64,000 nt of DNA from Streptomyces sp. SS1-1 (GTDB lineage Bacteria; Actinomycetota; Actinomycetes; Streptomycetales; Streptomycetaceae), in contig NZ_WBXN01000004.1 in assembly GCF_008973465.1 (NCBI RefSeq), forward strand, positions 5,868,501 through 5,932,500, in the 5' to 3' direction. A program made the position numbers and the translations under genes. The notes below the pieces were generated by a model. That model was not told the origin of the DNA. It searched no databases and saw nothing but the letters and a program-made list of their open reading frames with translations. Positions 40,890 through 56,318 of this stretch are shown here, one piece after another; within the stretch, counting starts at the first letter, position 1, and the number at the start of each line of letters is the position of its first letter.

Positions 40890-41045
40890 GGACGACTCCC
40901 TTGCTTCTCGGGCTGCCGCACCGTTGCGGGCGACTTCGCCAGCCACATCGTGGCAGCCGATCCCGGCAGGCGGCCACCGAGATCCGCGAGCCTTGAGAGC
41001 GATCAGGGCTGAGTTGGTTCGCTGGCCGAGCCTCTAGGGCGTGTT

Positions 41046-41375
41046 TTAGAACTCGCTGACCTGCTTGGTGGGCCGTCCGGGGAAGTCGCGGGCGGCCATC
41101 CAGATGGTGAGGTCGCGGGCGATGCCGTTGACACTCGTGGCCGTGGTGACCTCGTGCTCGTTGCGGGAGGTGTCACGGCGGACGATCTCGTAACCGCCTT
41201 CACCGACGACGGCCACGGAGGCGAACCAGACAGGATCGTCCTCGTCCGGCTGGACGACCACGAACGTGTTGTCGGAGTCGTTGAGGTCGCTGATCATCAT
41301 GAACAGCGCGTCTTCAGAGGGGTCGTCGATGCGGTCGCCGTTCTCGCTGTCGGCGCCGTAGTACTGAGCCCCCAT
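41046..41375 (-). CDS. 109-aa cargo protein inside the IS5-type element
   Basis: Starts MGAQYYGADSENGDRIDDPS, then DALFMMISDLNDSDNTFVVV, WFASVAVVGEGGYEIVRRDT and ARDLTIWMAARDFPGRP. The TAA stop lies within the left inverted repeat of the IS. Small acidic alpha/beta protein of the kind seen among immunity proteins (Imm1-like), but no firm match. It follows the transposase by 71 bases on the same strand. Confidence 0.65.
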   Translation of the reverse strand: MGAQYYGADSENGDRIDDPSEDALFMMISDLNDSDNTFVVVQPDEDDPVWFASVAVVGEGGYEIVRRDTSRNEHEVTTATSVNGIARDLTIWMAARDFPGRPTKQVSEF

Positions 41376-41446
41376 CGTTGCCTCTCCCTCACCCTGAGCA
41401 CCTGGTCGCGGTCAGCATGGCACGTGGCACCGACAGTTCAGGCCGG

Positions 41447-42316
41447 TCATAACCATTCGCCGATGGCGGCGATCAGAACGGTGGCTTCGAAGCGGACGGC
41501 GAGTTTGTCGAACCTGGTGGCGACCGCGCGGTTGCGCTTGAGCCGGTTGATTCCGCACTCGACCGCGTGCCGGGCCTTGTAGTCCTCGCGGTCGAACGCT
41601 GGAGGCCGCCCGCCGGCTTTGCCGCGCCGTCTGCGGTTGGCGGCCTGGTCGGCGGGCTCCGGGATCGTGCAGCGGATTCCGCGCTTTCGAAGGTAGGCCC
41701 GGTTGGCGCGGGAGGAGTACGCCTTGTCGCCCCGTACCCGCAGCGGCCGGACACGAGGACGGCCCGGTCCGGTGCGGGGCACCCGGATGCCTTCCAGGAC
41801 GGCGGCGAACTGAGGACTGTCACCACGCTGACCTGCGGTGACCAGCAACGACAGCGGCCGTTGGCCTTGCTCGCAGGCCAGATGGATCTTGGTGGTGAAG
41901 CCTCCCCGTGACCGGCCCAGGCCGTGGTCGTCGGGCTCGGTGCGGATTCCGCCCGGCGGTTCCTTCTGGGCCTGTCCGTCACGGCGGGCGCCTGCGGCGT
42001 GTTGATGGGCTCGGCAGATCGTGGAGTCCACGTTGACCTCCCACGTGATCAGCCCGTCCGCATCCGCCCGGGCCTGCAGCCGGGTCAGCAGTTCGGGCCA
42101 GGTGCCGTCACGTTGCCAGCGGCGAAAGAGCCCGTAGACGGTCTGCCACGGCCCGTACCTCGACGGCAGATCCCGCCACGGAGCACCGGTCCGCACCCGC
42201 CAACGGATCCCGTCGATCAGCCTCCGCCGACCCAACGATGGCCGCCCCAGCACCGCGACCGGCAACAGCGGCTCCAGCACGGCCCACTGCCCGTCAGAAA
42301 GATCCCCTCGCCCCAC
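41447..42316 (-). CDS. IS5-family transposase
   Basis: 289 aa, intact. Opening [20 protein letters not shown], helix-turn-helix region [23 protein letters not shown] motifs [49 protein letters not shown] and the C-terminal [20 protein letters not shown] with the catalytic Glu. Start 54 bases from the right inverted repeat. Confidence 0.93.
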
Positions 42317-43392
42317 ACCGCGATCATCACGGCACAGGGCAAGGGGCGAAGCCCACTTCTAAAACACGGCCTAGCCCCTCGCGCACCAAGGCTCTGCAGC
42401 GTGACGTCCTCTGCCGGCGTGGTGTGAGTGCCAGTGAGGTCTTCGACTACGGCGAGGTCGAGTTCGGCGGCACGCTCCCACATGTACATCTGCTGCTCAG
42501 GGGTCAGTCCCAGCGCCTCGTCAGAAGCGATGAGTTGAAGGGCGGCGGCGGCTAGTCCTGGCGCAGCCGCAGCCACGGCCTGGCGCATGGCCTCGTCGGC
42601 GGCATCGGCCGCAGGCAGGTCAGCGGCGTAGCGCGCGGCCATCCCGTGGACCTCGACCGCCCGAGCGCTGATCCGCTCCAGGGCGGCGTTCGCGCAGGCA
42701 TCGCCTTGGTCGGCGCGCAGCACGGGGTCCACCCGGTGGTGGCCCGTGGTCGCGGCGGCCGGTCGCGGCGGTACGTGCTCGGGACCGGATTCCTGGGCGG
42801 GCTCGGGGCGGGTGGCTGCAGCGACCCTCGGTGAGCGGCTGCGCAGCTTGTCCACGCGTTGGCGCACCCAGGCGTTGACGCGAGGGCGGGCGGTGGCGAA
42901 GCCGCGGGCCGCCGCGTCATATGCGAGGTCCCCCAACCACTGGACCACCTCGCGGGCGAGCAGGTCCCCGAGGTAACGGAGGAACTCGTCGTCGTGGGAC
43001 CGGTGGTCGTAGCCGTCCTGGTAGCCAGCGGCGTACCGGTCGGGGACGTCGAAGAGTTCGGCCTGGCCGATGAGCGAGTTGTCCCGGTCGTCGCGTACGT
43101 TGCCGCGCATCCCGTTGGAGGAGACGCGGGAGTGGTCGAGGTGGGTGCCGGCGGGATACACGGCCTCAACAAGCCTGCGGTTGGGCGGCCGTTCGTTGTC
43201 AGACATGGAAGCACTGTAGGAGGCGGCACTGACAGCACGGGGGTGAAGCCACCATCGCGTGAGTGACGCCGAAGGCACCCTTGGCGGGGAGCCCCGGCTG
43301 GACACGGGGAGGCGGGCGACTCCGCCACCTCAGAACGCTGCCGTCTTCCGATCGGGAGCAAGAGCTGGGCAGGCCAAGCCAGAAGTCCGAGA

Positions 43393-47310: not shown

Positions 47311-48471
47311 TCAAGAGATGCGCAACGCTGCCGTGTACTGGCCGGCGGTGCGGTCATAGATGACCAAGTCGGGGTGAACGTTGGCATCGTGGACACGGCC
47401 GAGCGTCACCGCAGCTGACACGGGGATAGCTGCCAGTATGTGCAGTCGTCGTAGGTTCTTGTGGTTGGCCTCCAGTTCGGAGAGCAGTCGCCGGAGCACC
47501 GAGGTGAACTCGTTGAGCGTGGGAACGGAATTGATCACGTCGACGGACGGGGTGACGTCGTGCGGGTGAATCGTCCAGCGCGGAAGCAGGGCAAGCTGTT
47601 GGGGTAGCTCTTCTGCCTGGATCGATCCGGAGATGTTCAATATCAGTACTCCGTCAGAGGCGTCAGGGGCAGGAGAGAGAGGCGGCTCGGTGACGAAGCG
47701 CACCATGGGGTCCGTCGTGTCGGGCCAGGACCAGGATTCCGTGCTGCGGTGCCGTTGGTAGATGGAGACGGTGAATGTGTCGTCCAAGCGGGAGCCGAAA
47801 TAGGCAAGCAGTGGCAAGCGGGCGAAGGCGAAGGCACTCACGTGGTGCACTGAGTCCTCACGTAGCGCTTCCGCCAGCTTGTGTTCCAGGACCCGATCGA
47901 TTTGCTGCTGGCACTGCTCCCAGTACGCTGGCCCGCCGGCCTTCTCACCGGGTATGCGTCGTAGATCGATCTCGAAGCCGTCGCCGTGCAGGCTGAGGGG
48001 GAAGTCGGGGAATCGCTCTTCGGAGCGGATGACGGCCTCGGCGGCGGTGGGCTTGGTGAGTTCGACTTCCTGGCCGCGGACTTGTCCGATCAGCCGGATT
48101 ACCACGGTGCCGGTTTCCGGGTTAAGAGCGGTCAGCCGCCGGATCCACTCCTCCCGATCGCGCTTGATGCGCCGGAGCCGTTCGACCGTCATGACGTCGA
48201 GAGAGCCCTTGCGGTCGATTTCGTTATGCTCGCCGCGGCACAGCAGCATGAGGTTGTCAGCCAGGTCGCGCTGGTCCTTCGGGAGGGGGTCCATACCGCG
48301 CGGCGACTTCGGCGTTGCGTCCTGCCCCACGATGTGGGCGAGCTCTCCCAGGGTGAAGTCCTGATAGGTGAGTTTTCCCTCGAGAAGGTAGATTCCGCAA
48401 AGTTCACATCGTCCGCCGGCGCGGACCCAGACCTTGAGCCGCTCGACGTCGGGGATGGACTTGCGTGCCAC
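47311..48471 (-). CDS. cap5: HNH-SAVED effector nuclease of CBASS (Cap5)
   Basis: 386 aa from the GTG at 48,471 with GAGGAG eight bases upstream. Residues 1-90: HNH nuclease (RAGGRCELCGIYLLEGKLTY, LGELAHIVGQ, DLADNLMLLCRGEHNEID). Residues about 185-385: SAVED ligand-binding domain (SAFAFARLPLLAYFGSRLDD, LHILAAIPVSAAVTLGRVHD, HPDLVIYDRTAGQYTAAL). Cap5 proteins degrade DNA once SAVED binds the cyclic nucleotide made by the partner CD-NTase, killing the infected cell. Last gene of the CD-NTase-cap2-cap5 operon, 150 bases behind cap2. Confidence 0.9.
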   Translation of the reverse strand: MARKSIPDVERLKVWVRAGGRCELCGIYLLEGKLTYQDFTLGELAHIVGQDATPKSPRGMDPLPKDQRDLADNLMLLCRGEHNEIDRKGSLDVMTVERLRRIKRDREEWIRRLTALNPETGTVVIRLIGQVRGQEVELTKPTAAEAVIRSEERFPDFPLSLHGDGFEIDLRRIPGEKAGGPAYWEQCQQQIDRVLEHKLAEALREDSVHHVSAFAFARLPLLAYFGSRLDDTFTVSIYQRHRSTESWSWPDTTDPMVRFVTEPPLSPAPDASDGVLILNISGSIQAEELPQQLALLPRWTIHPHDVTPSVDVINSVPTLNEFTSVLRRLLSELEANHKNLRRLHILAAIPVSAAVTLGRVHDANVHPDLVIYDRTAGQYTAALRIS

Positions 48472-48621
48472 TGGTCGACTCCTCTTGGCACACGCGGGGG
48501 TTGAGTGTGTCGCGGGCCTTGGTTCGGGGACACCGGTCTGTTGCTGTGGTGCCGTGCAGCGGAAGTATGGGGTATGGGCGCTCGGTCTGGCCGCACCGGC
48601 CGGGCTAGGGGACATGGGGGA

Positions 48622-50349
48622 CTAGTGATGATGCGGTCCGCTGCGGGCGTGTGGAAGAGCGACCAGGTGGGTTCCCGACTTCGACGCGGCCAGCTGCATG
48701 CCGAGAAACGTGGTGAGCGTGGCGGCGACGGCGGCGAGGTCGGCTGAGGATCCGTGGAAGGTGGGAACGGAGCAGCCGCGGGTCGGTATGAGTTCGTCGT
48801 CGGGCTCTGCTTCTTGCCACAGGGCGTGGTACAGCTCGAGTTGGTGGTCGTCGAGTACCGAAAGGCCAGCCAGGGAGTCCAAGCTGTGGGGGCCTTGGAG
48901 GGTTCTCGGTGCGCAGACGGTGAGGATGCCAAGTGTCCCGGTGCGGGTGTCTGTGGCGATCTGGGCGAGGGTTGCCTTGCGGTTGGGTGTGCGGGCGAGG
49001 ACATCGAGGCATTGCCCGATGGCCAGGCTGACCGTGGCGTCGATCACGAGGTCGGCGTGGTTCATGATCTGTTCGGCGTCCTCGGGGACGAGGCCCTCAG
49101 CGATGTCGACGGTCAGGCGGTCGTCGATGTTACGCAGTCGGTCAGCCAGTGCGGCGGCCTTGGCCGCGCCGAGGTCGGTCTCGAGGAAGTTCTGCCGGAC
49201 GAGCAGCCCGCCGGTGACGACGCTGGGGTCGCACAGCGTGATGCGTGCTGCTCCTGCGCGTGCGATGAACTCGGCGGTCCAGGATCCGATGCCTCCGCAG
49301 CCCCAGATGTGGATGTGTTTGTGCTGGTAGCTGTTGACGGGGCGGTTGTCGTCGCGGCGGGTTGTGACGGTATGCCGTTCGTCGGACACTCGACACCACT
49401 CGATCGGGAGGGCCGGGTTGACCGCGCTGGGGGTGAGAGTGCTCAGGCAACCGGGCTGGCGCCTTGCGAGGCTGCGGAGTTCGTTGGCGGCGTTTGCGGG
49501 GATTCGGCCCGCGAGTAGATGGGGTGGGCCGCCGGCGGGGTGGGGTACGGCCAGGAGGAGGTATTGGGGTGTGTCCTCAGCGTTTCTCACCACGCTGGTC
49601 GCGAGGGAGGTCAGCACGGCCGGCGCGAACGGCCTGGCGGTAGGGGCACGGCTGGCGAGTGGCGCATCGATCTGCCGGAGGAGTTCGACGAGTGTGGTGC
49701 CGGCTCCCATTGGCAGGGGCGCGGGGAGGATGATGACCGGCAGGCGTGCCGTGGGAGGTTCTTGCGGAGTGAAAGTGAGGTCCAGGCGCTGAGCGGTCCT
49801 TGGGATCAGGTATGCGGCCTGGACGCACTTTCCGAGCACGGGTTCACGCACAACGATGGTGGGTGTTCCTGCGGACTGATGCAGGACCCCGCCGACCGCG
49901 TGATAGAGGGCGGTTGAGGCGTTGAACCGGTTGCCGGCGGCATCGCCGAGCCAGGCCCACAGGCGGTTTAGGCTGGAGCGGATGCCGCCTGCCGGGTTCC
50001 ATTCTCGCGCCGGGTCCAGGTACAGGCACAGCCGGTGGCCCTGCAGGACGTGGGGGTATCCGATGAACCGGGTGTGCGTGACGTCGACCTGCGGGGGGAG
50101 CAGCGGGGAGGACGGGACGCGGAGAACGAACCGCTCGCGCGGCTGAAGCCGAATCCCTCCCTCGACCGAGACGGTCCCCCTCGTGTCGATCTCGATCGTG
50201 ATTGCCAGGGCGCCGTCGTCCGTACGGTCAGGCACTCCCACCACGCGCAGGGTGTCCGGCTGCTCGGCGCCGATCGCGCGGAGATCCGCGAGCGCCTGTC
50301 TCTGCCACGGTGTGGGAGCGCCGAACCGCCCGGGCTTTCGCTTGCTCAT
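48622..50349 (-). CDS. cap2: CBASS Cap2, fused E2-E1 ubiquitin-transfer-like protein
   Basis: 575 aa from the ATG at 50,349, overlapping the CD-NTase stop (ATGA). N-terminal E2-like domain (residues about 10-150) with the likely catalytic Cys in GHRLCLYLDPAREWNP. C-terminal E1/ThiF domain: IHIWGCGGIGSWTAEFIARA, ITLCDPSVVTGGLLVRQNFL, and the likely E1 cysteine in PTRGCSVPTFHGSSADLAAV. Cap2 conjugates the C-terminus of the CD-NTase to a target and raises its activity. The usual deconjugating JAB protease Cap3 is not encoded next to it. Confidence 0.9.
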   Translation of the reverse strand: MSKRKPGRFGAPTPWQRQALADLRAIGAEQPDTLRVVGVPDRTDDGALAITIEIDTRGTVSVEGGIRLQPRERFVLRVPSSPLLPPQVDVTHTRFIGYPHVLQGHRLCLYLDPAREWNPAGGIRSSLNRLWAWLGDAAGNRFNASTALYHAVGGVLHQSAGTPTIVVREPVLGKCVQAAYLIPRTAQRLDLTFTPQEPPTARLPVIILPAPLPMGAGTTLVELLRQIDAPLASRAPTARPFAPAVLTSLATSVVRNAEDTPQYLLLAVPHPAGGPPHLLAGRIPANAANELRSLARRQPGCLSTLTPSAVNPALPIEWCRVSDERHTVTTRRDDNRPVNSYQHKHIHIWGCGGIGSWTAEFIARAGAARITLCDPSVVTGGLLVRQNFLETDLGAAKAAALADRLRNIDDRLTVDIAEGLVPEDAEQIMNHADLVIDATVSLAIGQCLDVLARTPNRKATLAQIATDTRTGTLGILTVCAPRTLQGPHSLDSLAGLSVLDDHQLELYHALWQEAEPDDELIPTRGCSVPTFHGSSADLAAVAATLTTFLGMQLAASKSGTHLVALPHARSGPHHH

Positions 50350-51356
50350 CCAGCGCGCCCCGACCGCCCCGTCGTCGTCACGGCGGCCACGGACGCGGTC
50401 GCGGCGGGGAACTTCGCGCTGCTCTGCTGGGCGTCGGGCTCCTTGAAGCCCGTGCCGAACAGACCCTGCCACAGCTCGATGCTGGTCTCCTTGTCCGCAT
50501 GGTGGTAGGCAGCCTCGATCTCCTCCGTGTGCACGCTGATCCGCTCGCGGAAGTAGGCGTAGGTGTCCTGGGTCCAGCGGTGGTCAAACGTGACGCCCGA
50601 CCCGGAGGGGTCGGCGATGGACGGCTTGTTGGGGTTGGCCTGCAGGTAGGTGTTGAGGTCCTGGACCAGGTGGAGCAGGGTCGTGGGGACGTTGGCGTAG
50701 TAGCCCGGATCGATCAGCGTCTTGGTGTCGCTGACCTGGTTTCCGAGCAGAGTCGTGAGGATGATCGACCGGGTTCCGGTGAAGGAGTTCTTGTGGTCGC
50801 GCAGGTACTTCAGCAGCCGGATGACCCTGCGCAGGTTCCCGCCGGTGATGTCGTCCTGATTGCGCATCCAGGCCGTGAAGCCCTCGGGGTCCGTCGCCTC
50901 CCAGCAGTTGTCGTCCCGGTTGACGATGACGTCGCGGCCGTCGCTGAGCTGGACGTACGGGACGATGTCCACGTGCATCAGGTTCTTGTATTCCAGACGC
51001 ACGCAACGGCACTTGCGCGAGTGCGGCATCTCGCGGTAACGGCTGTGGCGGTCCAGTGCCGCGTAGACCTTGTCGATGTAGGTCTTGGGGCTGCCGTGCC
51101 AGTCCGGGTTCTCCTCCATCAGAAGGAGGAAGTCGGCATCGAACTCCTTGTCGCCGACCGGGTTGATGATGGTTCTCTGCGCCCACGAACCCTGAGGGAT
51201 CTTGTCGAGGACGAGGTGTCCGATCTCCTCGTCTGCCTTGAGGGCTCGGTAGACACTGTCCACTCGGTTGTCGAGCATGTCGAGCTTGAACCGGCTCAGG
51301 TTGACAGTGTCCGTGAGGAGCGTGTTGAAACAGGTGGTGAGCTGCACTGGCGCCAT
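50346..51356 (-). CDS. CD-NTase (CBASS cyclic oligonucleotide synthase)
   Basis: 336 aa from the ATG at 51,356 (MAPVQLTTCFNTLLTDTVNL); the frame is open upstream without family resemblance. Pol-beta nucleotidyltransferase site: IPQGSWAQRTIINPVGDKEF DADFLLLM (GS...DxD near residues 55-80) and the third acidic strand LMHVDIVPYVQL. Then the helical OAS-like C-terminal domain (RRVIRLLKYLRDHKNSFTGT). Makes a cyclic di- or trinucleotide after phage infection. The C-terminus GRSGRAG ends in small residues, as expected for a Cap2 substrate. First gene of the CBASS operon. Confidence 0.92.
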   Translation of the reverse strand: MAPVQLTTCFNTLLTDTVNLSRFKLDMLDNRVDSVYRALKADEEIGHLVLDKIPQGSWAQRTIINPVGDKEFDADFLLLMEENPDWHGSPKTYIDKVYAALDRHSRYREMPHSRKCRCVRLEYKNLMHVDIVPYVQLSDGRDVIVNRDDNCWEATDPEGFTAWMRNQDDITGGNLRRVIRLLKYLRDHKNSFTGTRSIILTTLLGNQVSDTKTLIDPGYYANVPTTLLHLVQDLNTYLQANPNKPSIADPSGSGVTFDHRWTQDTYAYFRERISVHTEEIEAAYHHADKETSIELWQGLFGTGFKEPDAQQSSAKFPAATASVAAVTTTGRSGRAG

Positions 51357-51513
51357 CCCGTAAATCGTCTTCACCGAAGATGATGACACCGTAGCGTGGG
51401 GGTACGACAGCGACGGTGACACGGCTGGCCAGTCTGCCTTCAGAGCGGGGTAGTGAAAGGGCGCGCTTGGAACGACGAAGCTCCGCCGGAAGCGGAGCCT
51501 CGTCGAAGCTGGC

Positions 51514-51789
51514 TTAGGGCGTGGGGCGGCATCCGGCGCGCGCATCGTTATACTCCGGATCTCCGCTTTCGAGGACGCGGAGTAGGGACGCCGTGACAAC
51601 ACGCGTCTTACGGCCGATGCGTAGCACACGGCACGGAAACTGCCCGTTGCGGATCAGGTCGTATCCCTTGGCCCGTGAGAATCCCAGCGCCTTTGAGGCG
51701 TCCTCCACGCTCCCCGTTCCGTCCCAGGTGGCGCGGATGTGAGCGGGGCTATAGCGAGGGCCCACCGTCTCTTCGATCTGCGTGTGCAT
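51514..51789 (-). CDS. Excisionase-like helix-turn-helix protein
   Basis: 91 aa. MerR/Xis-type winged helix: SVEDASKALGFSRAKGYDLI, RNGQFPCRVLRIGRKTRVV, TASLLRVLESGDPEY. This layout is that of excisionases and small DNA-binding proteins of Streptomyces integrative elements. It lies 5.7 kb from the integrase, with ISs in between, and 157 bases upstream of the CBASS operon on the same strand, so it may be the element's Xis or may regulate CBASS. Confidence 0.7.
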   Translation of the reverse strand: MHTQIEETVGPRYSPAHIRATWDGTGSVEDASKALGFSRAKGYDLIRNGQFPCRVLRIGRKTRVVTASLLRVLESGDPEYNDARAGCRPTP

Positions 51790-51905: not shown

Positions 51906-52385
51906 TTGGGGCTATGTTGCCTCGCTCGCCGTGGAGGGGTTCCCTCTGACAGTGTGAGGCACGATGCCGGCGAGGAGTCGGCAGAGTCCAGCACTTCACT
52001 GCAGTGCCCAGCACTGTGACGAACGGTTACCACGGATGAGTTTTGTGTTGCATGGGTCGCAGTTCGCCCTGTTGCACCACTGCAGGTCAATTGAGGTCTG
52101 GCTCTTCGGGGTCAGGCCCCCTAAATCTCACCGTGCTGGATGGGGCTGGATTTTCTGATTCCTCGTCACCTGCCGCCAACCCCGCATCTCGTGTACTGTG
52201 CTGGATTCGTGCTGGACGCCGACGAATCACGGGTACCACCGGCCTGCGTGCTGCGCGCCGGGGCAGCTGAACCAGTCGATCGGGCCTCCGGCACACGTTC
52301 TTCACGTGACTCGCGCCGGTTGCGGAAACAAATCTCTGCCTGTCTGACGTTGTCGATCTCCTATGCGATAACGGGGGTGGTCGGC

Positions 52386-52502
52386 TTGAAGTTGTTCCGG
52401 ACGGATGCATCGCAATGCGGAGTGAGCGAGGTCATGCCGCGTCTTGCTGAGGTCGAGGCAGATGTGCAGGGTCTCGTCGAGGCGCACATGGAGACGCTGC
52501 TA
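52386..52502 (+). pseudogene. 5' fragment of a putative nuclease gene (DUF5655/NucS-like start)
   Basis: From a TTG the frame reads KLFRTDASQCGVSEVMPRLA, EVEADVQGLVEAHMETLL. From memory this matches the opening of restriction-like DUF5655/EndoNuc proteins (...ENDVTGLVEANMETLLGVRFL). An IS cuts it at 52,502; the flank beyond the IS (after 55,086) gives one matching Gly and then diverges, so the gene was already truncated. Confidence 0.5.
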
Positions 52503-52571
52503 AGGGCTGTCCCGTAAACGATCTATGAGTCACCCAGGGCAGGGCCGATCGCCGTGTGGTCGCTGCCCTAG

Positions 52572-53471
52572 GCAGTTTCGTTTGGATCATCGGGCGGACC
52601 AGAGGAAGATGCCCGCGATGTGGAGCCCGGCCAGGTAGATGGTCGCGGTCTTCTCGTAGCGGGTGGCGATACCGCGCCACTGCTTCAAGCGGTTGATGCA
52701 CCGCTCGACGGTGTTGCGCTGCTTGTACGCCTCCCGGTCGAAGGCCGGCGGTCTGCCACCGACCGGTCCGCGCCGCATCCGGTTGGCCTGCTGATCGGCC
52801 CGCTCCGGGATCACCGCCCGGATACCGCGTCTGCGCAGGTGGTCGCGGATCTGGCGGGAGGAGTAGGCCTTGTCGGCCAGGACCAGGTCCGGTCTGGTGC
52901 GCGGACGACCGCGCTGTCGGGGAACGCGGAGGCGGGCCATCACCTCGGTGAAGGCAGGTGCGTCACCGGCCTGGCCGGCGGTGAGGACGAACGCCAGCGG
53001 CCGACACCGGCCGTCGGCGGCAAGGTGGATCTTTGTGGTCAGTCCGCCGCGGGAGCGGCCGATGGCATGGTCGGCCGGCTCGTCGGCCGAGGCCCCTTTT
53101 TTGCGGGCCCCGGCCGCGTGCTGGTGAGCCCGCACGATGGTGGAGTCCACCGACACGGCCCAGCTGACGTCTTCGTCCGCGTCGGCCTGGGCCACCAGGG
53201 CGGTGAACACCCGCTCCCAGGTGCCGTCGACGGCCCACATCCGCAGCCGGTTGTAGACGCCTCGCCAGTTGCCGTACTTCTCCGGCAGATGCACCCACTG
53301 CGTACCGGTCTGGAACTTGAAGGCGATCGCATCGATCACCTCACGATGGTCCCGCCAGCGGCCACCCCGCTTCGGCGTCCGGTCCGGGAGCAACGGCTCG
53401 ATCCGCGCGCCCACTGCGCATCAGTCAACGGCACACCCGGACCAACGACCAACTGATCCAAACGAAACTGC
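52572..53471. mobile_element. IS5-family element (inner), 900 bp
   Basis: Perfect 18-bp inverted repeats GCAGTTTCGTTTGGATCA at both ends, flanked by CTAG at 52,568-52,571 and 53,472-53,475. The right CTAG supplies the TAG stop codon of the outer element's transposase, so insertion was at the very end of that gene. Confidence 0.9.
52587..53414 (-). CDS. IS5-family transposase (inner element)
   Basis: 275 aa, intact: [98 protein letters not shown] and NTVERCINRLKQWRGIATRY. Fills most of the 900-bp element. Nearly the same layout as the 41,447-42,316 transposase but clearly a different subgroup. Confidence 0.93.
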   Translation of the reverse strand: MGARIEPLLPDRTPKRGGRWRDHREVIDAIAFKFQTGTQWVHLPEKYGNWRGVYNRLRMWAVDGTWERVFTALVAQADADEDVSWAVSVDSTIVRAHQHAAGARKKGASADEPADHAIGRSRGGLTTKIHLAADGRCRPLAFVLTAGQAGDAPAFTEVMARLRVPRQRGRPRTRPDLVLADKAYSSRQIRDHLRRRGIRAVIPERADQQANRMRRGPVGGRPPAFDREAYKQRNTVERCINRLKQWRGIATRYEKTATIYLAGLHIAGIFLWSAR

Positions 53472-54239
53472 CTAGCCGGTGAGGGCGAGGTTGTGTATCC
53501 GGGCGATGCCGAGCATGGCGTGATGGATGCCGTCACCCTTGAGCCGGCAGTCACGCAGGATCTTCCACGTCTTCATCCGCGCGAAGACGTGCTCGACGCG
53601 GGCGCGGACCTGCTTGTGGGAGCGGTTGTGCTCCTTTTTCCAGTCGGACAGGTCTTCGCCATTGCGTCGGCGGTGGGGCATGACGAGCCCGGTGCCCGGG
53701 TAGCCGCCGTCGGCGATCGTCATGGTCTTGCCGACGGCGGCCTTGGCGCCGGATTCCTCCCATGCCTTGCAGTCGTTGCGGTTTCCGGCGAGAGGCCGGC
53801 CCACGACGACGATCAGGCGGGTGCCGGCGTCGATGACGACCTGCTGGTTGGTGGAGTACCTGTAGTTCTTCGACTGCTCGGCCACAGTGTGGTCGCGGGT
53901 GGGGACCAGGGTGCCGTCCACGATGAGCACGGTGTCCTTGCGGAACCGCTTCCGCGGGCGGAGCGCGAGCAGGGGCCCGAGGTGGTCGATGATGCGGTCA
54001 GCTGCGGACTTCGAGATGCCGAACAGCGGGGCGAGCTGGCGCATTGTCAAGTTCGTGCGCCAGTACGTCGTGACCAGTAATACCCGGTCTTCCAGCGGCA
54101 GACTCCACGGTCGACCCCTTCGAACCGCGTCCGCCCCGTCGTGCCTCAGCATCCTCACCAACTTGCTGAAACAGCGCGGGCTCAGCCCGGTGAAGGGAGT
54201 TATCCACGCCGGCTGCGTAGCCGTGATCACAGCAGTCAC
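53472..54239 (-). CDS. IS5-type transposase (outer element)
   Basis: About 255 aa if started at the GTG at 54,239 (VTAVITATQPAWITPFTGLS); the frame is open further upstream, and GGGAGGG lies about 20 bases before this GTG, so the start is uncertain. HARBI/DDE_Tnp_4-like layout: RVLLVTTYWRTNLTMRQLAP, LFGISKSAADRIIDHLGPLL, VDGTLVPTRDHTVAEQSKNY, IADGGYPGTGLVMPHRR and the C-terminal HKQVRARVEHVFARMKTWKI. The stop TAG lies in the CTAG target site of the inner element. Probably still functional. Confidence 0.85.
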   Translation of the reverse strand: MTAVITATQPAWITPFTGLSPRCFSKLVRMLRHDGADAVRRGRPWSLPLEDRVLLVTTYWRTNLTMRQLAPLFGISKSAADRIIDHLGPLLALRPRKRFRKDTVLIVDGTLVPTRDHTVAEQSKNYRYSTNQQVVIDAGTRLIVVVGRPLAGNRNDCKAWEESGAKAAVGKTMTIADGGYPGTGLVMPHRRRNGEDLSDWKKEHNRSHKQVRARVEHVFARMKTWKILRDCRLKGDGIHHAMLGIARIHNLALTG

Positions 54240-54288
54240 GGCTGGATCGTTCCAAACACCACCCTCCCGTTGAACCTTGTTGTGTGGG

Positions 54289-55023
54289 TCAAGGCGCCAG
54301 CGCGGTGGCCACCTGAGCCAAGCGATCGGCTGACAAGGCGAAGGGGTTGGTGGGGTTGCGGAAGGAGTACTCGCCATCGTTCACGGAGAATCCGTGCCCG
54401 GCTACCGTCCAGCGCGCTGGACCGGGGGCCCCTTGATCCTCCAGGAGAGCAGAGGCGAGGGTCTCGGGGTCTTCCACGCGTGTGCGGGCGCGTAGCGCAC
54501 CAGCCAGGCGGCCAACAGCGTCGTCGGGCACTGCATCGTCGCCGAACGCAGGCAGCAGGAGCAAAAGACGGGAGTGGGGGTCGGTGGTGCTGCCTCCGGG
54601 CAGCATGTTGTCCGCAGCGGCCATGAGTTCAGGCCAGGACAGGCCCGGACCCATAAAGTGCCCGTCATCCCGGGCGAGCACCTCGGCCTGGCCCCAGTCG
54701 GGGTGGTGGATGAGGTAGTCGGTTCCGGTGTCATCCGCGGCTGTCCGGTAAACCACGTGAAGACGGTGATCAGCAGCGAGCGGAACCGTGAAGGCCGGCC
54801 ACTCGGCCCGCTCCCAGAGCTGCCGCTGGAAGTCGCCGGCCGCGTCATAGTCCGCGCCGAACAGCAGTTCCTCGGCCTCCTCGCTCTGGATACACGAGTA
54901 GAGGTGCCCCAGCCAGAAGAGCGGCTCATCCAAGAGCCCGACCTGGTGCGTGAGGGGACCACCGTCGTAACCCGCTATCCGGGCAGGATGCAGGTCTGCA
55001 CTGTTCATCACGGATGACATCAT
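54289..55023 (-). CDS. 244-aa cargo protein inside the outer IS5-type element
   Basis: Starts MMSSVMNSADLHPARIAGYD, with the right inverted repeat only about 45 bases upstream. Segments: LFWLGHLYSCIQSEEAEELL, FGADYDAAGDFQRQLWERAE, HRLHVVYRTAADDTGTDYLI, RLLLLLPAFGDDAVPDDAVG. Acidic, soluble, immunity-protein-like composition; no firm family. It shares strand with the transposase, whose start lies about 50 bases further on. Confidence 0.6.
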   Translation of the reverse strand: MMSSVMNSADLHPARIAGYDGGPLTHQVGLLDEPLFWLGHLYSCIQSEEAEELLFGADYDAAGDFQRQLWERAEWPAFTVPLAADHRLHVVYRTAADDTGTDYLIHHPDWGQAEVLARDDGHFMGPGLSWPELMAAADNMLPGGSTTDPHSRLLLLLPAFGDDAVPDDAVGRLAGALRARTRVEDPETLASALLEDQGAPGPARWTVAGHGFSVNDGEYSFRNPTNPFALSADRLAQVATALAP

Positions 55024-55110
55024 GCCGCCCTGGCTCCGCGTCCTTGAAGCCGGGCGTACCAGCCGATCATTGCGGGACAGCCCTTAGGATGCTCCCAAAG
55101 GCAAGCCATT

Positions 55111-55147
55111 AGCAATATGGTCGAGCAAATTGCGCGACCATATTGCT
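55111..55147. promoter_or_regulatory. 13-bp inverted repeat upstream of the XRE-DUF5753 gene
   Basis: AGCAATATGGTCG, 11 bases, CGACCATATTGCT: perfect arms, centred about 54 bases before the ATG. No T-run follows, so an operator (probably for the XRE protein itself) is more likely than a terminator. Confidence 0.6.
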
Positions 55148-55182: not shown

Positions 55183-56088
55183 ATGCCAGAAGCGAAGACG
55201 CCGTGGTCGCTGACTCTCAGTGAAGTCGGCCTGCGCCTGGAGGACTTGCGAGAACGCCGGGACCTCACGCAGGGCGACGTTGCAGGCCACGAAGTGCTGC
55301 GCCGGCGCGGAGTCAAGATCGACAAGAGCGGGCTGAGCCGACTCGAACGAGGGCAGCGCCGACGTGTGGCCCGGGATCTCATCGAAGCGCTGCTTGAGGT
55401 CTACCAGGCCAGCGACTCCGAGAGTTCAGAAATCCTGGCACTACTGGGGGCGGACACCACTCCGGCCGGTCGACCACGTCCTGCCCTGTGGCGACGCAAC
55501 GCACACTTGCTGGGACCCATGCAGTTCGAGGGCTTCCTGAAGATGGAGCGCCGGGCCGCTGCGCTGTCCAACTATGAACGGGACATCTGGCCGGGCCTCT
55601 GCCAGGTCGAGGAATACGCCTACACGGTTATCGCCCAGATGCGGCCCGATCTGCGTCCATCCGAGGTCAAGGCACTCGTCGACGTCCGCATGGACCGCCA
55701 GCAGCAGGTGCGAGAGGGTGCACTCGCCGAGTTTCGCGCCCTGGTGGACGAGCATGCGCTCCATATCACCGGCGGCGACCTCAGCGTGGCGAGGCGGCAA
55801 CTGGAACGAGTTCTGGAGGAGTCCGAAGATCCTCGCAACACGATCCGAATCCTGCCAGACGCCGTCGGATTGCACCCGGGGTCTGCGGGCCCGTTCGTCC
55901 TAATGGCCTTTCCGGAGGCCGCCCGCCAGGTTGTGTGGGTCGAGACGATGGTCAGCTCGTTGTACTTCGACGGGGAAGATGATGTGCAGCGCTACACCGC
56001 GGCTTTCACCAACCTGTGGGAGCGGGCGCTGGACCCCGACGAGACGCGCACGCGCCTCAAGAAAAGGATCAAGGAGCTAGAACAGTGA
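55183..56088 (+). CDS. XRE-family regulator with DUF5753 domain
   Basis: 301 aa. N-terminal helix-turn-helix (LRLEDLRERRDLTQGDVAGH, VKIDKSGLSRLERGQRRRV), then the DUF5753 sensor-like domain (NAHLLGPMQFEGFLKMERRA, YERDIWPGLCQVEEYAYTVI, RMDRQQQVREGALAEFRALV, GPFVLMAFPEAARQVVWVE). Such WhiJ-like proteins are usually partnered by a small DUF397 protein, as here, where the stop overlaps the next start (GTGA). They regulate development or act like antitoxin/toxin pairs. A strong palindrome precedes the gene. Confidence 0.92.
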   Translation: MPEAKTPWSLTLSEVGLRLEDLRERRDLTQGDVAGHEVLRRRGVKIDKSGLSRLERGQRRRVARDLIEALLEVYQASDSESSEILALLGADTTPAGRPRPALWRRNAHLLGPMQFEGFLKMERRAAALSNYERDIWPGLCQVEEYAYTVIAQMRPDLRPSEVKALVDVRMDRQQQVREGALAEFRALVDEHALHITGGDLSVARRQLERVLEESEDPRNTIRILPDAVGLHPGSAGPFVLMAFPEAARQVVWVETMVSSLYFDGEDDVQRYTAAFTNLWERALDPDETRTRLKKRIKELEQ

Positions 56089-56318
56089 CAGCGAAGCCGG
56101 ACCCGTCCTCGTTCGACCTCACGTCGGTCAAGTGGACGGTGTCCAAGTACAGCGGCGGCGGCGGGAACTGCGTGCAGGTCGCCGTCAAGGACGGGTACGT
56201 CCTGATCGGTGACTCGCAGAACCCTGGTCGCCCGCCCCAGGTCTTCACCCCGGCCGAGGCCAAGGCGTGGCTGCTCGGCGCGAAGGACACGGACTTCGAC
56301 TTCCTGCTCGATCTGTGA
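56085..56318 (+). CDS. DUF397 protein, partner of the XRE-DUF5753 regulator
   Basis: 77 aa from the GTG overlapping the regulator's stop. DUF397 pattern: VKWTVSKYSGGGGNCVQVAV, DGYVLIGDSQNPGRPPQVFT, PAEAKAWLLGAKDTDFD. BldB/WhiJ-associated family; pairs of this kind are found many times per Streptomyces genome. Co-transcribed with the regulator and followed by a strong terminator. Confidence 0.93.
   Translation: MTAKPDPSSFDLTSVKWTVSKYSGGGGNCVQVAVKDGYVLIGDSQNPGRPPQVFTPAEAKAWLLGAKDTDFDFLLDL

Follow-up and report, generated by a model that had tools for sequence, protein, structure and literature searches.

A probable passenger gene within an IS112-type insertion sequence of Streptomyces that is interrupted by a second IS5-family element

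The window, by which is meant the whole 64-kb stretch of Streptomyces DNA analyzed, belongs to a genome of 7.8 Mb and contains two nested elements of the IS5 type, the outer of which encloses a gene for a protein of 244 amino acids in addition to its transposase. A further IS5-type unit with a non-transposase gene lies at some distance from them. The features are the following (coordinates are positions in the window):

52501-52502, no strand: TA target repeat, left (from the sequence)
52503-55084, minus strand: putative outer transposable unit, an IS of the IS112 type that contains cargo and is split by the inner IS (perfect 12-bp ends and TA; copy in S. zaomyceticus)
52503-52514, plus strand: terminal inverted repeat on the transposase-stop side, AGGGCTGTCCCGTAA... 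(one of the exact pair)
52568-52571, no strand: CTAG target repeat of the inner IS, left (from the sequence)
52572-53471, minus strand: inner IS of 900 bp, a secondary insertion at the stop of the outer transposase (perfect 18-bp ends, CTAG)
52587-53414, minus strand: predicted IS5-family transposase of the inner IS, 275 amino acids (NCBIfam transpos_IS5_3)
53472-53475, no strand: CTAG target repeat of the inner IS, right, which holds the stop codon (TAG) of the outer transposase
53472-54257, minus strand: predicted outer DDE transposase, IS5 family, IS112 type (Pfam, NCBIfam, 84% identity to annotated IS112 proteins)
54289-55023, minus strand: putative cargo gene, 244 amino acids, upstream of and co-directional with the outer transposase (ORF, pN/pS, relatives)
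55073-55084, minus strand: terminal inverted repeat on the cargo side, AGGGCTGTCCCGCAATGATC... (homology to G249 and S. zaomyceticus stops here plus 3-4 bases)
55085-55086, no strand: TA target repeat, right (from the sequence)
41034-42374, minus strand: second putative IS5-type unit with cargo, 1341 bp, CTAG at both ends (further copies, plasmid matches)
41046-41375, minus strand: putative cargo gene of the second unit, 109 amino acids (ORF)
41447-42316, minus strand: predicted transposase of the second unit (Pfam DUF4096 and DDE_Tnp_1)

An earlier note on this DNA had placed ends with a TA repeat around the outer transposase and the 244-amino-acid gene, and this layout holds, with both open reading frames where the note put them. 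The 12-bp motif AGGGCTGTCCCG has two exact matches in the 64-kb window, 52503-52514 on the plus strand and 55073-55084 on the minus strand, which form an inverted pair, and both lie against TA (52501-52502 and 55085-55086) in the context C-TA...TA-G. When up to two mismatches are allowed, the window contains 20 matches against 15.65 expected, a count reached in 16 of 100 shuffles; because this is the chance frequency, only the exact pair is informative. The 2-bp TA repeat by itself is weak evidence for the boundaries. The length of the outer unit minus the inner IS and one CTAG is 1678 bp. Just beyond its right end lies a near-perfect 18-bp palindrome with a 1-nt loop (AGCAATATGGTCGAGCAA / TTGCGCGACCATATTGCT, 55111-55147).

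The longest open reading frame of the outer transposase spans 53472-54377 (minus strand), within which we infer a true start near 54257 (GTG). The protein matches DDE_Tnp_1, DDE_Tnp_4 and HTH_Tnp_4 of Pfam above cut-off; its nearest NCBIfam model is transpos_IS5_4, at 127.7 bits and thus under the cut-off of 140. Plasmid proteins with the annotation 'IS5-like element IS112 family transposase' share 84% identity with it. Its DDE transposase, short TA target repeat and matching inverted ends place the outer element, as judged from sequence, in the IS112 type of the IS5 family, the kinship to IS112 being drawn from the annotated proteins.

The nesting described in the earlier note also stands. 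The perfect 18-bp ends of the inner IS (52572-52589 and 53454-53471) lie inside CTAG, and together with it form perfect arms of 22 nt (52568-52589 and 53454-53475). Its transposase scores 276.9 bits against NCBIfam transpos_IS5_3 (cut-off 110) and matches Pfam DDE families. The inner IS is missing from the copy of the outer unit in S. zaomyceticus and represents an ordinary insertion that occurred secondarily at the stop of the outer transposase. In seven of 30 loci that contain relatives of the inner IS, both ends lie near the transposase. In another seven (L287, L295, L302, L303, L304, L308 and L311) one end lies 307-952 bp from the transposase, a count that comes without a chance control. 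This subgroup may carry cargo too; since the motif failed to detect one or both ends in 16 of the 30 loci, no cargo rate is given for it.

The second unit of the window, already recognized as a case of an IS5-type element with a non-transposase gene, occurs in two further copies in the same genome (99.9% identity, differing flanks, CTAG at the ends). Of 346 plasmid records with any match to it, 14 align over at least 80% of its length, five of these over all of it at 90-91%. Its transposase is nearer to that of the inner IS, and its 109-amino-acid cargo protein has no Pfam or PADLOC match. Cargo is thus carried within the window by two IS5-type elements that belong to different subgroups.

Whether the 244-amino-acid gene travels with the outer IS, a question raised by the earlier note, can be answered from other genomes. 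Plasmid NZ_CP108525.1 of S. zaomyceticus contains the outer unit with its cargo and without the inner IS over 1680 bp, with 1563 of 1680 alignment columns identical (93%) and both genes annotated. The homology corresponds to window positions 52500-52570 and 53470-55088 and ends 3-4 bases past the inverted repeats. Because it stops there and the flanks are unrelated, the 244-amino-acid gene can be taken, on these alignments, to travel with the IS. A second genome (G249) contains the cargo gene with a truncated transposase; the homology, 93% identical, ends at the equivalent of position 53686, and the right end consists of the inverted repeat plus TAG. In a third (G385), a relative of the cargo gene is accompanied by a remnant of the right end, and a 6-kb stretch around it gives no match to the outer transposase. 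On two plasmids (H2 and H3), cargo relatives lie beside small fragments of an IS112-type transposase, with no TA-flanked ends within two mismatches. These four cases indicate that cargo units decay. In the sister of the window transposase on the tree described below (L011), an LRV-repeat gene stands in place of most of the 244-amino-acid gene, of which about 95 bp of the 3' end are kept together with a 40-bp match at the right end; this locus reads as a cargo replacement.

A set of relatives was assembled from 200 loci with a transposase match (30 loci, 80 loci from named Streptomyces, another 30 loci and 60 further places), of which 169 are near complete and represent 148 distinct insertions as judged by the 3' flank. 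The end equivalent to 52503-52514 lies mostly about 66 bp past the transposase stop. Upstream ends were searched for with at most two mismatches and an adjoining TA, in about 1.5 kb of upstream DNA for many of the loci without an end and in little for a few. In 37 of the 148 relatives, the upstream end lies 27 bp before the transposase (about 54284 in the window) and there is no cargo (plain form). In 86, a TA-flanked end lies 298-1904 bp upstream with other DNA between (cargo form), a share that describes the best matches to the window transposase, biased to close relatives, and is not a population rate. In the remaining 25, no upstream end is recognized at this threshold. Among the 111 non-plain copies, a wrong-orientation control finds two ends, and 40 shuffled motifs find a mean of 0.35 and a maximum of two. 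Where both ends were located, 60 of 77 cargo units and 27 of 32 plain copies show the C-TA...TA-G context. The suspicion that cargo carriage may be a pattern is thus borne out by the 86 relatives with a distant TA-flanked end. The earlier note had also held that a third end between 54,240 and 54,290 in other copies, excluding the cargo gene, would speak against its reading. Such an end literally exists in the plain copies; the exclusion of the cargo from the window unit does not follow, because these ends show a plain form of the IS, and the S. zaomyceticus and G249 copies share the cargo-side end. A different IS as the source of the right end of the outer unit (GTCCCGCAATGATC, not GTCCCGTAACTGCT) was considered and rejected, as ends of this form are present repeatedly in cargo units and look like the 3' ends of the set.

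Single-linkage matching sorts the 86 inserts into 30 groups; this grouping is approximate, one group (L030, L156 and others) mixing two different open reading frames. The choice of insert ORF was mechanical in this GC-rich DNA: in 58 units the ORF taken and the transposase are divergent, in 27 they are co-directional, and one unit has none. As far as such mechanical calls show, the slot usually holds a single gene. Thirty ORFs from 29 units, hand-chosen as likely genes, were scanned against Pfam. The names obtained are Imm35 (the one match to an immunity family among the scanned cargo of other units), DUF6221, DUF7878, DUF5959, APH, three GNATs, alpha/beta hydrolase and HEAT/LRV repeats; TetR and SDR occur together in one insert (L165), HAD_SAK_2 is matched below cut-off by one ORF, and 17 of the 30 have no Pfam match at E<=0.01. 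Enzyme-like inserts include an APH-type phosphotransferase (L226, by Pfam; L241 is similar to it) and an alpha/beta hydrolase (L145). Eight of nine groups tested have a median cargo pN/pS of 0.16-0.55, and the ninth has 0.90; three of the nine, the last one among them, are represented by a single pair each.

A transposase tree of 148 rows, in which 57 of 132 inner branches have less than 80% support, requires at least 59 changes of insert kind for about 31 states and at least 15 changes between plain and cargo forms. Inserts have thus probably been gained, lost or exchanged often. A decayed plain end still lies beside the transposase in three of the 86 cargo units (L116, L119 and L038), and in ten at least 24 nt of the outer end are the same as in the plain end. 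Both observations fit capture of cargo via a second upstream end followed by decay of the inner end, a route that we infer from these cases and that the inner-end remnants support in only those three units.

Of 295 genomes of the genus, 90 contain relatives of the 244-amino-acid gene, whose pN/pS against five relatives (0.16-0.27) points to purifying selection. The structure model of its product is confident (pLDDT 86.2, pTM 0.87) and has no PDB match at E<=0.001; the protein has no Pfam, NCBIfam or PADLOC match. An immunity function was considered and finds no support in these family searches or in the fold search. A constrained gene that adjoins the transposase and reads in its direction might be an accessory transposition gene, such as a regulator or target chooser, instead of a passenger. 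This alternative is very improbable: the plain relatives, among them seven copies in one S. acidiscabies genome with identical transposase DNA, lack the gene, unrelated genes occupy the slot in other copies, and relatives of the gene occur widely in the genus and, on plasmids H2 and H3, beside nothing more of an IS112-type transposase than fragments. Its absence from plain copies, the varying slot and the relatives elsewhere argue that the 244-amino-acid gene is a passenger unrelated to transposition.

Several comparisons bear on the mobility of cargo units. In pairs of units that share an insert, homology stops within 12 bp of the upstream inverted repeat in 116 of 199 cases, short of it within the unit in 78 and beyond it in five. 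The two ends of a unit match each other at 11.23 of 12 positions across 77 cargo units, against a best value of 11.14 in 5000 permutations by re-pairing; in the 32 plain copies, permutation detects no end covariation beyond chance. Streptomyces sp. Ag109_O5-1 contains three units (L159, L160 and L164) whose 1345 bp are identical and whose flanks at the three sites are unrelated, and another genome (G284) contains two (L214 and L215) identical over 1368 bp at different sites. Empty sites were searched for by comparing the joined flanks of eight cargo units with 392 genomes, the two best candidates being scored per genome, and were found for three. For L223, base-by-base alignment gives 202 of 221 positions in G030 and 194 of 221 in G009, and for L164, 182 of 203 positions in G269; these three target loci are without an IS112-type transposase. 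For L119, the search alone finds empty sites in several genomes at 72-75% identity. For L160, L127, L112, L207 and L111, none of the matches listed from the 392 genomes runs convincingly across the junction. The S. zaomyceticus copy, the identical copies at multiple sites and the three empty sites argue that the unit and its cargo move as a whole.

Two minor observations concern insertion sites. In 12 of 109 insertions, a coding-like frame has its TAG stop at CTAG, compared with four and one in two shifted frames; this is suggestive and too weak, and a claim of stop-codon targeting was dropped. Many genomes also contain the sequence just outside the 3' end of L160 and L164, with matches that begin close to the insertion point (query 138-280 and 418-560), and these recurring flanks are perhaps CTAG sites at gene ends.

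Transporter insertion sequences (tISs) are best known from the IS1595 family. As two papers define them, they are ISs whose terminal repeats enclose a transposase and passenger genes unrelated to transposition (PMC3129680, PMC9330008). In the outer unit, one pair of terminal inverted repeats likewise encloses a transposase and a passenger gene. The reading we prefer, with a probability of about 0.93, is that the outer element is a tIS of the IS112 type with its cargo-side end beyond the passenger gene, so that transposase, 244-amino-acid gene and ends move as one. Such a unit would enter CTAG sites with duplication of TA, and the element's own transposase would do the moving. When the transposase uses the upstream end of a neighboring copy, or a look-alike of such an end, cargo would be acquired; decay of the original inner end would follow. 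Comparative sequence evidence demonstrates the unit boundaries, whole units at different sites, some empty sites, several kinds of cargo per IS lineage and selection on the cargo. It is extremely improbable that the arrangement is a chance or composite one, in which a host gene lies between the IS and the unrelated end of a mostly lost second IS and no unit moves: the TA repeats are short, the flanks in the window give no simple empty site and the agreement of outer and plain ends over at least 24 nt would be expected from a second copy, but the S. zaomyceticus unit has the same boundaries at another site, the cargo-side boundary recurs in G249 and the two ends covary in cargo units, and the boundaries, identical copies and empty sites practically rule it out.

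The tIS reading has several points of comparison among known systems. Relative to tISs as described, the IS112-type set is distinguished by about 30 inserts in one slot of a single IS5/IS112 set, by an excess of cargo over plain forms among the close relatives sampled and by one apparent replacement. A composite transposon also has a gene between ends of one IS type, but the outer unit is bounded by two short terminal repeats instead of two IS copies and has one transposase of its type. Integron gene cassettes are single diverse genes in an exchangeable slot. The likeness to them is a functional analogy only, as IS112-type units consist of a DDE transposase and inverted ends, without integrase or attC, each unit with its own transposase. 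IS112 itself is described in Streptomyces albus as a plain element that disrupts restriction-modification genes, and the accessible portion of that account does not mention a passenger gene (PMC3937824); the outer unit, in contrast, carries one. IS21, IS66 and others contain additional ORFs that are thought to regulate transposition (PMC3281130), whereas the extra ORFs of the IS112-type set are mutually unrelated and missing from plain copies. The tIS concept is thus already known, and the IS112-type cargo variant is undescribed in the literature searched: none of the matches listed describes the pattern in IS5/IS112, ISfinder and most subscription journals lying outside the search.

ISs are usually regarded as carrying transposition genes only. 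If varied single passengers are carried by many copies of a common Streptomyces IS, then IS movement transfers single genes directly, and IS112-type units may commonly serve to bring single genes from one genome to another. Some 'hypothetical proteins' beside transposases would then be mobile cargo, and the plain copies, decayed inner ends, cargo units and apparently replaced cargo would provide a natural series for studying gene capture by an IS. A broader proposal is possible and rather doubtful, namely that IS112-type elements constitute a genus-wide single-gene cassette system of Streptomyces, with a slot that is emptied and refilled and with small accessory genes, perhaps immunity-like, swapped between chromosomes and linear plasmids.

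At the insertion site of the outer unit in the window, the joined flanks are matched in some part in 101 of 392 genomes, none of which yields the uninterrupted target. In many genomes the match to the left flank (52220-52502) ends at the junction, which looks as if a gene had been interrupted at this point, and the right flank has a separate match in G028. The DNA next to this insertion has thus probably undergone a deletion or recombination. To the left, the unit is adjoined by a CBASS-type locus (47311-51629, minus strand) composed of genes for a SAVED protein (47311-48615), a ThiF protein with a prokaryotic E2 (48622-50472) and a SMODS nucleotidyltransferase (50346-51629). To the right lie a regulator with HTH_31 and DUF5753 (55183-56088) and a short downstream ORF (56016-56318), a common pair in Streptomyces.
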